A stretch of DNA of 64,000 nt, taken from assembly GCF_024227435.1 (NCBI RefSeq), contig NZ_CP100445.1, positions 2,911,369-2,975,368 on the forward strand. The letters are read 5' to 3'. Positions 44,882 through 49,632 of the stretch are shown here, piece by piece. Origin of the DNA: Natrinema caseinilyticum. Lineage in GTDB: Archaea > Halobacteriota > Halobacteria > Halobacteriales > Natrialbaceae. The notes below the pieces were generated by a model, which searched no databases, was not told the DNA's origin, and saw only the letters and a list, made by a program, of their open reading frames with translations. Positions within the stretch are counted from its first letter, which is position 1. Each line of letters opens with the position of its first letter. Position numbers and translations under genes: made by a program.

Positions 44882-45967
44882 ATGCAAATCGAGCCGCAAG
44901 CGTTCGACCGGGTTCTTTCGTCCATGTGCACGGACCCGCACCCGGCGGCGCGCGACGCGGCCGAGCAGTTTCTCGCGACGAACCCCGGCGATCCCGGCAC
45001 CTACCCGAACGTCGCGGCGCTCGAAGACGACGCCATCGCCCTTCTGGGGGAGATCGCGGGGCTGGACGATCCGGCGGGCTACATCACCAGCGGCGGGACC
45101 GAGGCGAACATCCAGGCCGTCCGGATCGCCCGCGAGCGAGCCGACACCCGCTCGCCGAACGTCGTCATGCCCGAATCGGGCCACTTCAGTTTCCGGAAGG
45201 CCGCCGACTTGCTCGGCGTCGAACTCCGCGTCGTTCCGACCGACGATCGACACCGCGTCGATCTCGAGGCCGTTCGCGCGAGCGTCGACGACGACACGGC
45301 GCTGGTAATCGGGGTCGCGGGGACGACGGAGTACGGCCGGGTCGATCCGATCCCCGAACTTGGCGAGATCGCTCACGCCGCCGGCGCGATGCTCCACGTC
45401 GACGCCGCCTGGGGCGGGTTCGTCCTCCCCTTTACCGACCACGAGTGGCACTTCGGTCACGCCGCGGTCGACACGATGGCGATCGATCCGCACAAGATGG
45501 GACAGGCTGCAGTCCCCGCGGGCGGACTGCTCGTCCGTTCCCCGGCCCTGCTCGACGAACTCGCCGTCGATACGCCCTATCTCGAGTCGACCTCCCAGGC
45601 CACGCTGACCGGAACCCGTTCGGGTGCGGGCGTCGCGAGCGCAGTCGCCGCGATGGAGGCGCTGTGGCCGGAGGGATACCGCAGTCAGTACGTCCGGTCA
45701 CAGAACAACGCGACGTGGTTGGCGGACGCCCTCGAGAAACGAGGCTATCGGGTCGTCGATCCGGTGCTCCCGCTCGTCGCGGCCGACGTCCCTCGGTCGA
45801 CGTTCGACGCGCTCCGAGGGGCCGGGTGGCGAATCTCTCGGACCGCCACCGGCGAACTCCGGATCGTCTGTATGCCCCACGTCTCCCGCGAAATGCTGGC
45901 TTCGTTCATCGGGGATCTCGACCGGCTCGAGGTGCGCGCGAGCGTTCCCGTCGCGAGCGACGATTAA
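44882..45967 (+). CDS. mfnA: PLP-dependent tyrosine/aspartate decarboxylase (MfnA family)
   Basis: 361 residues. The PLP Lys is in [16 protein letters not shown] (about 200-215), preceded by DAAWGGF with the cofactor Asp. [20 protein letters not shown] near residue 70-89 binds the cofactor phosphate. MfnA-type enzymes decarboxylate tyrosine in methanogens. In haloarchaea the same family is assigned as aspartate decarboxylase, giving beta-alanine for coenzyme A, which fits here as no methanofuran is expected. A TATA-like AAATAAACC lies about 30 bases upstream. Convergent with the LOV gene. Confidence 0.93.
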
Positions 45968-46106
45968 GCCGGTCACGGGATGCCGGGTCCCTGTTGTGGC
46001 CGGTCACGTGTGCCGTCGCCGCACCGCATTCGATCGCAGCCACCGCTGACCGTCCGCTGACACCCCGACCAGTTCGCGGTACCCCTCCGTAGTGGGCCTT
46101 CCCGGT

Positions 46107-46138
46107 GACTCCTACAGCGGAAGACGACTCCTACAGCG
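46107..46138. repeat. 19-bp tandem duplication in the mfnA-LOV gap
   Basis: GACTCCTACAGCG occurs at 46107-46119 and again at 46126-46138, spaced 19 bases. It lies in the 205-base gap between the convergent 3' ends of mfnA and the REC-PAS-LOV gene. The spacer between copies differs, so only 13 bases are identical. Confidence 0.75.
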
Positions 46139-46172
46139 AAAAGAGCAGGAGCGATCCGGACTCCGCCGTCGG

Positions 46173-47336
46173 CTACTCGCGAGCCGTAATATCCTCTTGA
46201 AACCCGGCGAAATGGGTGAGCGTTCCGTCGTCGTCGAAAAGCGGGACGACCGTGAGCCGGTTTACGAACGGGTCGCCGTTCTTCCGGTAATTCTGTACGT
46301 CCACGGTGACTCGCTCGCCGGCATCGATAGCGCGTCGGATCTCCGCGACGGATTCCGTCCGCGTGGCTTCTCCCTGGAGGAAGCGACAGTTGCGACCGAG
46401 GATTTCCTCGCGCGGATACCCGGTCAGTTCGACGCATCCTTCGTTCGCGTAGATGATCGGATTGTCGTCCCGGCTCGGATCGCTGATCGTGATTCCGATG
46501 GGGGCCACGTCCATCGCGTCTTCCTTTATCGAGAGCTCTTCTCTCACCACCTCCGCTTCCTCCGCCCTCGAGATGGTGCAGATCGTCACGTCTTCGGACG
46601 TCGACGAAACCGTGTGCTCGACACGGATCTGCTCCCCACCTTTTCGGACGAAGTAGTTCGTTCCGCTCCACTTGTCTTCTCTCGACGTTGGAATGATCTC
46701 CTCGTAGGCCCTGTCGAGTTCGTCTTTGGGGTACAATAGCTCGAAGTGTTTGCCGAGTAACTCGCTGCGGTCGTACCCGACGATTTCAGTGTACGATTCG
46801 TTCGCATAGATGAATTCCAACTTCTCATTGAGCAGGCTGATACCGTCGTGTGCGGTCTCGATGGCACGGAATCCGCGTTCGAGTTGTTGTTCGGCTCGGT
46901 GACGGGCGACGGCCTGTTCGATTCGATTGGCCAGGACCGTGTACTGGTCCGTTCCGACTTCTTTTTGGAGGTATTCGGTGACGCCGGCCGAGATGGCGTC
47001 GCTCGCGATTTCTTCGCTTCCTTTCCCGGTGAAGAGGACGAACGGAAGGTCCGGCTGCGTTTCCCTGACGTTCTCCAGTACGTCCAATCCGTTCATCCCC
47101 GGCATATCGTAATCGCAGACGATACAATCGACGTCGATCTCCTCGATTCGCTCTACCCCGTCGTGAGGGTCGGTTTCCGTAACGATCTCGAAATACTCGC
47201 GCTCCCGTTCGAGGTACGTCGAGACCAGATCGGCAAGCGACGCGTCGTCTTCGATGTGGAGAATCGTAACGTCGCCTCCCGCATCTGTGATGAGCGCTTG
47301 CTCGTCGAAACTCGTTCGAACGCGATCGGTACTCAT
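46173..47336 (-). CDS. Response regulator with PAS and LOV domains (probable blue-light sensor)
   Basis: 387 residues. A REC domain (about 24-143) has the acidic pair EDD at the start, the phospho-acceptor Asp75 in CDYDMPG, and the conserved Thr and Lys (LFTGKG, LQKE). A PAS domain spans about 152-258. The last domain (about 275-387) is a LOV domain: GRNCRFLQG with the photoactive Cys317, NYRKNGDPFVNRLTVVP with the flavin-binding Asn residues, and FAGFQEDIT with the flavin Gln. It should bind FMN and form a Cys adduct in blue light. There is no kinase or DNA-binding output, so it must act through a partner. It stands alone. Confidence 0.92.
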   Translation of the reverse strand: MSTDRVRTSFDEQALITDAGGDVTILHIEDDASLADLVSTYLEREREYFEIVTETDPHDGVERIEEIDVDCIVCDYDMPGMNGLDVLENVRETQPDLPFVLFTGKGSEEIASDAISAGVTEYLQKEVGTDQYTVLANRIEQAVARHRAEQQLERGFRAIETAHDGISLLNEKLEFIYANESYTEIVGYDRSELLGKHFELLYPKDELDRAYEEIIPTSREDKWSGTNYFVRKGGEQIRVEHTVSSTSEDVTICTISRAEEAEVVREELSIKEDAMDVAPIGITISDPSRDDNPIIYANEGCVELTGYPREEILGRNCRFLQGEATRTESVAEIRRAIDAGERVTVDVQNYRKNGDPFVNRLTVVPLFDDDGTLTHFAGFQEDITARE

Positions 47337-47514
47337 ATTCTCCCGAATTGATTCTTCCGTCGTATAAATATTATCGCCGCACTGACGGACCGGTGACGGG
47401 GAACTGGGGCAGTTCGCTCGCGACGACAGGTGGTCGACTTCGACTCGACACCGGTGGTCGATTCCCGCGATCGAAACCGGCGGGTTTTACGCCCGCCGGC
47501 CCTTCGTGACGACC

Positions 47515-49632
47515 ATGAGCCACGACGAGTTTCCGACGGACGAACCCGCCGTCGTGACCTGTGGGTTGCCGTACGCGAACGGCGACCTGCACATCGGTCA
47601 CCTGCGGGGCTACATCGGCGCAGACGCGTTCAATCGCGCGCTCGAGACGCTGGGTCAGGACTCCATCTACGTCTGCGGATCGGACATGCACGGGACGCCG
47701 GTCGCGGTCAACGCAGAGCAGGAAGGGGTCGATCCGGAGGACTTCGCGCTCGAGTGGCACCACCAGTACGAGGAGACGTTCCCGCAGTTCAACGTCGATT
47801 TCGACAACTACGGACACACCCACGACGAGACAAACACCGAACAGACCCAGGAGATCGTCCGAACCCTGGACGAGCAGGGCTACATCTACGAGAAGGAAAT
47901 TCAGGTCGCGTACGACCCCGACGCCGACCAGTATCTGCCCGATCGATACGTCGAGGGGACCTGTCCCTACTGCGGCGCGAAAGCCCGCGGCGACGAGTGC
48001 GACGAGGGGTGTCAGCGCCACCTGGAACCGGGCGAAGTCGAGAATCCGACGAGCACGATCACGGGCAATCCCGCGGAGTACCGCGACCGGCCGCACAAGT
48101 TCTTCGAGGTCTCCGAGTTCGCCGACTTCCTCACCGAGTTCCTCGACGATCTCGAGGGGACGTCCAACGCGCGCAATCAGCCCAGGCAGTGGATCGAGGA
48201 GGGGCTACAGGATTGGTGTATCACCCGTGACATGGACTGGGGGATCGATTACCCCACCGCCGAGGGCGACGAGGAAAGCGACCTCGTCCTCTACGTCTGG
48301 GTCGACGCGCCGATCGAGTACATCTCGAGTTCGAAGCAGTACTCAGAGCGCGTCGGCGCGGACGAGTACGACTGGGAACAGGTCTGGAAGGGTGAGGGCG
48401 AGATCGTACACATCATCGGGCGGGACATCATCCAGCACCACACGATCTTCTGGCCGGCGATGCTCGAGGGTGCGGGGTACAACACGCCGCGCGGGATCGC
48501 CGCGACCGGCTTCATCACGATCAACGGCAAGGGACTCTCGACGAGCCGAAATCGTGCGATCTGGGCGAAGGAGTACCTCGAGGAAGGGTTCCACCCGGAC
48601 CTGCTCCGGTACTACCTGACGACCACGGGCGGCCTCCAGCAGGACGTCGACTTCTCGTGGGAGGCCTTCCAGGAGAAGGTCAACGGCGAACTCGTCGGCA
48701 CGGTCGGCAACTTCTGGTACCGCTCGCTGCTCTTCGCCTACCGGAATTACGAGGGGACGCCGGACGCGGCGGTATCCGAGGACGTCCGAGAGCGCATCGA
48801 GGGCGCGATCGGCGAGGTTCGCGAGAGCGTCAACGACTACTCCATGCGAGGGGTAGGGCAGGCCGCGACCAGGCTCGCACAGTTCGGTAACGAGTACATC
48901 CAGCGCAACGAGCCGTGGAAGCTCACTGACGACGAGCCCGAGACGGCCGCGCAGGTCATCCGGGACTGCGTCCAGATCGCCAAGGCGGTCGGCGTCCTCA
49001 TCGAGCCGATCGCCCCCGGCAAAGCGCAGGCGCTGTGGGCCCAACTCGGTGAAGAAGGCGATATCGCGGACGCCCGCCTCGAGGACGCGCTCGAAGCCCC
49101 GCCACGGACGTTCGACGAACCGGGCGAACTCTTCGAGCAGATCGAGGACGACCGGGTCGCGGAACTGACCGAGAACCTCGAGGACAGGATCGCGGCGGCC
49201 GCGGCCGGCGGCGACGAGTCGGACGAGGCCGACGCGGAAACCGAAAGCGACGACACCGACGCGAGCGAATCCGCGGGTATGACGGAGACTGACGATCTCG
49301 AGGCGTTGACCGAGGAGCGAATCGGGTTCGACGACTTCCAGGAACTGGACATTCGCGTCGGCCGGATCGAGACGGCGGAGGGTATCGAGGGCGCGGACGA
49401 CCTCGCGCGACTCGAGGTCGACATCGGTTTCGAGACCCGACAGGTCGTCGCGGGGATCAAGCAACTCCACGACTTAGACGAGTTGCCGGGGACGAAGTGC
49501 GTCCTGCTCGCGAACATGGAACCCGCCGAACTGTTCGGCGTGGAGTCGAACGGCATGATCCTCGCGGCCGGCGAGCAGGCGGATCTGTTGACCACGCACG
49601 GGGACGCGGACCTCGGCGAGAAGATCAGGTAG
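47515..49632 (+). CDS. metG: Methionyl-tRNA synthetase
   Basis: 705 residues from ATG 47515 (MSHDEFPTDEPAVVTCGLPY); a GTG three codons upstream also reads in frame. The class I signature is LHIGH (25-29), the zinc knuckle is CPYCGAKARGDECDEGC, and the KMSKS loop appears as KGLSTSR. An alpha-helical anticodon-binding domain follows. A disordered acidic linker (about 565-590) leads to a C-terminal EMAP/tRNA-binding domain (FDDFQELDIRVGRIETAEGI). It charges tRNA(Met) in the cytoplasm. A TATA-like TTTTACG lies about 27 bases upstream. It stands alone. Confidence 0.97.
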   Translation: MSHDEFPTDEPAVVTCGLPYANGDLHIGHLRGYIGADAFNRALETLGQDSIYVCGSDMHGTPVAVNAEQEGVDPEDFALEWHHQYEETFPQFNVDFDNYGHTHDETNTEQTQEIVRTLDEQGYIYEKEIQVAYDPDADQYLPDRYVEGTCPYCGAKARGDECDEGCQRHLEPGEVENPTSTITGNPAEYRDRPHKFFEVSEFADFLTEFLDDLEGTSNARNQPRQWIEEGLQDWCITRDMDWGIDYPTAEGDEESDLVLYVWVDAPIEYISSSKQYSERVGADEYDWEQVWKGEGEIVHIIGRDIIQHHTIFWPAMLEGAGYNTPRGIAATGFITINGKGLSTSRNRAIWAKEYLEEGFHPDLLRYYLTTTGGLQQDVDFSWEAFQEKVNGELVGTVGNFWYRSLLFAYRNYEGTPDAAVSEDVRERIEGAIGEVRESVNDYSMRGVGQAATRLAQFGNEYIQRNEPWKLTDDEPETAAQVIRDCVQIAKAVGVLIEPIAPGKAQALWAQLGEEGDIADARLEDALEAPPRTFDEPGELFEQIEDDRVAELTENLEDRIAAAAAGGDESDEADAETESDDTDASESAGMTETDDLEALTEERIGFDDFQELDIRVGRIETAEGIEGADDLARLEVDIGFETRQVVAGIKQLHDLDELPGTKCVLLANMEPAELFGVESNGMILAAGEQADLLTTHGDADLGEKIR

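Follow-up and report, generated by a model that had tools for sequence, protein, structure and literature searches.

Archaeal LOV proteins have been surveyed before. In the main text of a 2014 census, 167 of them appear as DNA-binding fusions (30%) and kinases only (PMC4844311), and the main text of a 2025 survey describes mostly kinases (PMC12202551). The latter also presents ALovD-1, another haloarchaeal LOV protein, as a slow-cycling photoreceptor that is active at 3 M salt, binds flavin and forms the 390-nm adduct in blue light. Proteins without a fused output are known on two sides. Among archaeal response regulators, REC-(PAS)n proteins without an output have been recognised as class v and predicted to act through dimerisation and protein contacts; according to the main text of that work, the class comes mostly from methanogens, LOV domains do not figure in the account, and as of 2018 the class was without a studied member (PMC5847659). 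Among LOV proteins, DsLOV regulates pigment synthesis although it lacks a C-terminal extension (PMC4335406), and PmSB-LOV requires illumination to bind the repressor PmlR2 (PMC9758184).

The DNA analysed here, referred to as the window, is a stretch of 64 kb from Natrinema caseinilyticum. On its minus strand lies a gene (46173..47336, ATG start, TAG stop) for a protein of 387 aa, which the preliminary description had read as a REC-PAS-LOV protein and a probable archaeal blue-light receptor lacking an output. Our searches agree with this architecture, and every residue named in that description turned out to be correct. The REC domain occupies residues 25-131 (46944..47264, minus strand; Pfam Response_reg, 2.7e-22), and its phosphorylation site, of which only Asp75 (codon 47112-47114, minus strand) had been pointed out, is complete and consists of E29, D30, D75, T103 and K125. 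It is followed by a PAS domain without the LOV cysteine (residues 154-243; 46608..46877, minus strand; Pfam PAS PF00989) and by the LOV domain (residues 272-386; 46179..46523, minus strand), where the Pfam scan gives the second PAS-fold match of the ORF (PAS_9, residues 281-385, 1.1e-36). The same scan finds no HisKA, HATPase, HTH_10, HalX or HalOD in the 387-aa protein, as had been supposed for kinase, HTH and HalX outputs, and Pfam and NCBIfam together reveal only PAS and no known output domain after REC. A single-sequence AlphaFold prediction of the whole protein gave no usable model (mean pLDDT 37).

The LOV assignment is supported from several directions. In NCBIfam, the best match is to the YtvA family (YtvA_fam, NF052652, 4e-47); it covers the LOV part, and its score of 160.8 bits stays below the whole-protein cut-off of 250 because the STAS domain is absent. 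Solved LOV domains are matched in PDB by phmmer (9vf7, 1.9e-34; DsLOV, 6gay, 3.5e-31). The alignment to DsLOV runs without a gap, so that the Natrinema residue number equals the DsLOV number plus 245, and it places Cys317 (codon 46386..46388, minus strand) exactly at the adduct position, C72 of DsLOV. A misplaced Cys317, which the preliminary description had named as a refuting case, is thereby ruled out. Also identical are DsLOV residues N71, R73, Q76, R89, N104, N114, F131, A132, G133 and Q135. In other words, all polar flavin contacts of DsLOV are kept (N316, R318, Q321, R334, N349, N359 and Q380), and the substitutions (V38 to T283, L92 to I337, I118 to V363, as well as M49I) all fall on non-polar contacts. 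Across all 4.77 Mb of the genome, the LOV core pattern has just two occurrences and its reversed control has none, which puts the signature far beyond chance. The other occurrence belongs to L001, a LOV protein whose C-terminal part looks like a helix-turn-helix and, judged by eye, resembles Bat/HTH_10; the genome also encodes three rhodopsin-family proteins. The conserved flavin contacts and the LOV matches thus make the 387-aa protein a probable blue-light receptor, in line with the preliminary description.

The gene lies on a 3.94-Mb replicon, between two plus-strand genes that we take, from family knowledge, to be mfnA (pyridoxal-dependent decarboxylase, 44882..45967) and metG (methionyl-tRNA synthetase, 47515..49632), the latter divergent from the LOV gene. 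A TATA-like box, TTTATA (47363..47368, minus strand), matching by consensus only, has its centre some 30 nt ahead of the ATG, a position that would fit a leaderless transcript.

A point absent from the preliminary description is how the protein came to lack an output. Its closest homologues, which belong to other haloarchaeal families, are collinear proteins of 600-611 aa with 61-66% identity over the full length (G066 and G225, 66%; G304, 64%; G039, 62%), and end in HisKA-HATPase, as Pfam confirms for L147. The Natrinema protein stops at "FAGFQEDITARE", three residues past the "DIT" motif of the LOV domain: where it reads 'DITARE*' in the alignment, the homologues run on as 'VTSRRELIEEF...HDMQNP', with a linker of about 15-30 residues leading to the H box (e.g. 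"HDMQNP"). By comparison with the homologues, the kinase should begin in the 205-bp spacer between the stop of the LOV gene and that of mfnA (45968..46172, minus strand), but no kinase remnant is present there in any frame, and there is no kinase match anywhere in the 64-kb window. The genome contains 28 kinase-like matches, none of them a close copy of the missing part, the best being only 35-37% identical to the G066 kinase. Taken together, the empty spacer and these low identities indicate that the kinase has been lost from the genome. That the kinase is concealed by a frameshift or a split of the gene, or has been relocated within the genome, was considered and rejected on the same grounds. 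In a tree of 87 proteins, the Natrinema protein falls among 11 kinase-bearing ones, in a clade with 99% SH-aLRT support; a search of genome contigs returned distant, non-halophile matches alone. As far as the sequences tell, the lack of an output is therefore a secondary loss, caused by a deletion or rearrangement directly behind the LOV domain. That an assembly or sequencing error, be it a frameshift or a chimera, merely conceals the kinase seems vanishingly improbable: nothing specific speaks for it beyond a listed contamination of 3.86%, whereas none of the downstream frames contains kinase sequence, the next gene, mfnA, is intact and lies only 205 bp away, and related species have the same spacer between mfnA and metG.

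As for the origin of the gene, the 1.5 kb preceding metG include mfnA in 19 of the other 28 Natrinema genomes, and in two more mfnA lies slightly further away; the LOV gene is absent from that stretch in all 28. A comparison that took in 29 Natrinema genomes and 125 of the family as a whole showed the truncated form in a single species. The spacer between mfnA and metG (45968-47505 in the window; loci L049-L076) is tolerant of insertions across the genus; it is short in some species, and in others, judged by eye, it is occupied by unrelated inserts, among them genes for a transposase, an MFS transporter and a TrmB-like regulator. The GC content of the LOV gene is 57.6%, compared with 65.9 +/- 4.3% for window genes longer than 180 aa. 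The low GC content, the closest relatives in other families and the variable spacer all suggest that the gene was probably acquired laterally and settled in a permissive location.

The loss is not confined to this locus. Among matches in 391 haloarchaeal genomes (one per species), we examined reading frames that stop shortly behind the third domain, in assemblies of mixed quality but mostly with long contigs. The search for output-less REC-PAS-LOV proteins proposed in the preliminary description yielded 12 further kinase-less proteins of this type; the layout noticed there is thus real, but not unique. Six of the 12 have an intact LOV pocket (L128, L129, L130, L137, L139 and L140) and six an eroded one (L131-L136, all in genus g62), so that the LOV sites are kept in 7 of the 13 kinase-less LOV-type proteins. 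Seven more kinase-less proteins are REC-PAS-PAS without a LOV pocket. The 87-protein tree needs eight architecture switches, at least six of them forced by well-supported branches. AU tests reject both a single origin of the 13 LOV-type kinase-less proteins (p=0.003) and the pairing of the Natrinema protein with the kinase-less protein of G272 (p=0.0002), with p-values that are somewhat favourable since the groups were defined with the tree already in view. One ancient kinase-less family that includes the Natrinema protein is ruled out by the tree and these tests. For the Natrinema and G272 proteins, both nested among kinase-bearing relatives, the tree makes it clear that the direction was loss and not gain; on deeper branches the direction is less certain.

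Several frames met in the course of this survey deserve separate mention. In G266, a 287-aa frame (L166, 4758-5618) consists of PAS-LOV only and is about 70% identical to the G066 kinase protein, both receiver and kinase having been lost. A REC-PAS-LOV-GAF frame in G095 (L027, 1474-3720) was excluded from the count, as its kinase continues in the same frame past an in-frame stop; it may represent a split gene, a nonsense mutation or a sequencing error. In the LOV kinases L127 and L028, the adduct cysteine is replaced by Thr or Trp; they are possibly light-blind or photoreducing.

The kinase-less proteins differ in what they have preserved. A complete REC site, with the signature D-D-D-T-K or E-D-D-T-K, is present in all 20 kinase-less proteins of the tree and in 55 of the 67 longer, nearly all kinase-bearing ones, although these are not independent samples. 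Genus g62 retains a kinase-less protein in all eight sampled species, with conserved gene surroundings and a LOV kinase encoded 1-8 kb away. Six of these eight proteins have a decayed LOV pocket (Cys replaced by Tyr, Gln by Tyr, His or Ser, and Asn lost) but an intact receiver site, which implies that in this genus the receiver is more important than light sensing; the latter is thus not invariably preserved once the kinase is gone. Beside the kinase-less gene, all eight species carry a conserved divergent gene of about 390-470 aa (L129, 5103-6440, and relatives) that has no Pfam family. The kinase-less protein of G272 is likewise encoded about 3 kb from another LOV kinase; its gene is followed after 43 bp by a TrmB-family regulator on the same strand (L128, 5706-7646), and the two possibly form a light-responsive pair. 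These patterns raise the question of whether such proteins are light-independent modulators, in which the receiver serves as a phosphate sink or the PAS domains form mixed dimers that damp full-length kinases, the LOV domain being incidental. The better preservation of REC than of LOV sites would agree with this, and the two lineages with a LOV kinase nearby make mixed dimers feasible. For the Natrinema protein, however, we consider this explanation quite improbable: its LOV pocket is fully intact, and a LOV kinase with which it could dimerise is missing from its genome, the only other LOV motif being that of L001 with its HTH-like C-terminus.

A different concern is that the remaining part became functionless once the kinase was deleted and has simply not yet acquired stop codons. 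Occurrence in a single species and residence in an insertion-tolerant spacer are what one would expect of such a remnant, and a relative in G266, L166, is devoid of both REC and kinase. Moreover, at sites otherwise invariant in the clade the Natrinema protein has 16 changes out of 131, a twofold excess over the 2-8 seen in its relatives, suggesting that selection is somewhat relaxed or altered. Nonetheless, the changes are mostly mild (F34L, F41Y, E113D, V383I), none of them hits a REC catalytic or polar flavin-contact residue, and the end branch measures 0.36, compared with 0.22-0.33 for its sisters when taken from the same node. The long ORF is intact, and kinase-less versions persist in other lineages. 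We therefore regard decay as unlikely, if by no means negligible.

With domain layout, kinase loss, intact key residues and recurrence all established by comparison, the explanation that we consider fairly probable is that an acquired REC-PAS-LOV histidine kinase lost its kinase and became an output-less, light-switched response regulator signalling through protein binding in trans. According to this scheme, the gene would have entered the Natrinema lineage laterally as a haloarchaeal REC-PAS-LOV-histidine kinase, and the HisKA-HATPase part would then have been lost just past the LOV domain. The LOV domain would bind flavin and form the Cys317 adduct in blue light, while Asp75 of REC may be phosphorylated by some other histidine kinase of the cell. 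Light and phosphorylation might jointly alter the dimer state or the surface of the protein, and the signal would leave by binding another protein. We infer signalling in trans from the archaeal REC-(PAS)n class and from the short LOV proteins that act on partners. The partner-switching role put forward in the preliminary description finds no support when the term is taken strictly, since it would call for STAS, anti-sigma or RsbT-type parts: the protein carries no such fusion, and the 64-kb window contains no candidate partner gene. Nor do the conserved neighbours that were to be looked for include a partner at this gene, mfnA and metG being housekeeping genes. More broadly, one may speculate, if only tentatively, that the conversion of REC-PAS-LOV kinases into soluble light-gated receivers without a kinase is a recurrent step in haloarchaea. 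The products would form a photoreceptor class of their own, small proteins that integrate the light input of LOV with phosphorylation of REC and work through protein contacts only, some members partnering a nearby LOV kinase.

How, then, does the protein relate to the systems described so far? Haloarchaeal REC-PAS-LOV histidine kinases (e.g. G066, L147:7785-9587) share its REC residues, and most of those in the clade also its flavin-contact residues, but they go on into HisKA-HATPase where it stops after LOV. The LOV core is common to the YtvA family (LOV-STAS; NF052652) and to Bat-like LOV-HTH regulators; the C-terminal STAS of the former and the DNA-binding HTH_10 at the end of the latter are both missing here. 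Short LOV proteins (DsLOV, PMC4335406; PmSB-LOV, PMC9758184; RsLOV; VVD) are similar in having a LOV domain without a fused output, but they are single LOV domains with caps, whereas the Natrinema protein adds REC and PAS in front. Archaeal REC-(PAS)n regulators come closest in plan, with REC followed by PAS folds only and no output. The best reading of the sequence is that the protein belongs to this class and has a photoactive LOV domain; it differs from the class in that its last PAS is a canonical LOV and its apparent origin is kinase loss. Since output-less REC-PAS proteins and output-less LOV proteins were both known, it is their combination that is new, relative to the main texts of the papers compared, whose supplementary lists may name an output-less archaeal LOV protein. 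A kinase-less REC-PAS-LOV protein joins the archaeal LOV proteins with the output-less REC-PAS class. Its light input can be switched at will, which would make the way in which output-less archaeal response regulators signal directly testable, and repeated kinase loss supplies natural replicates for the comparison.
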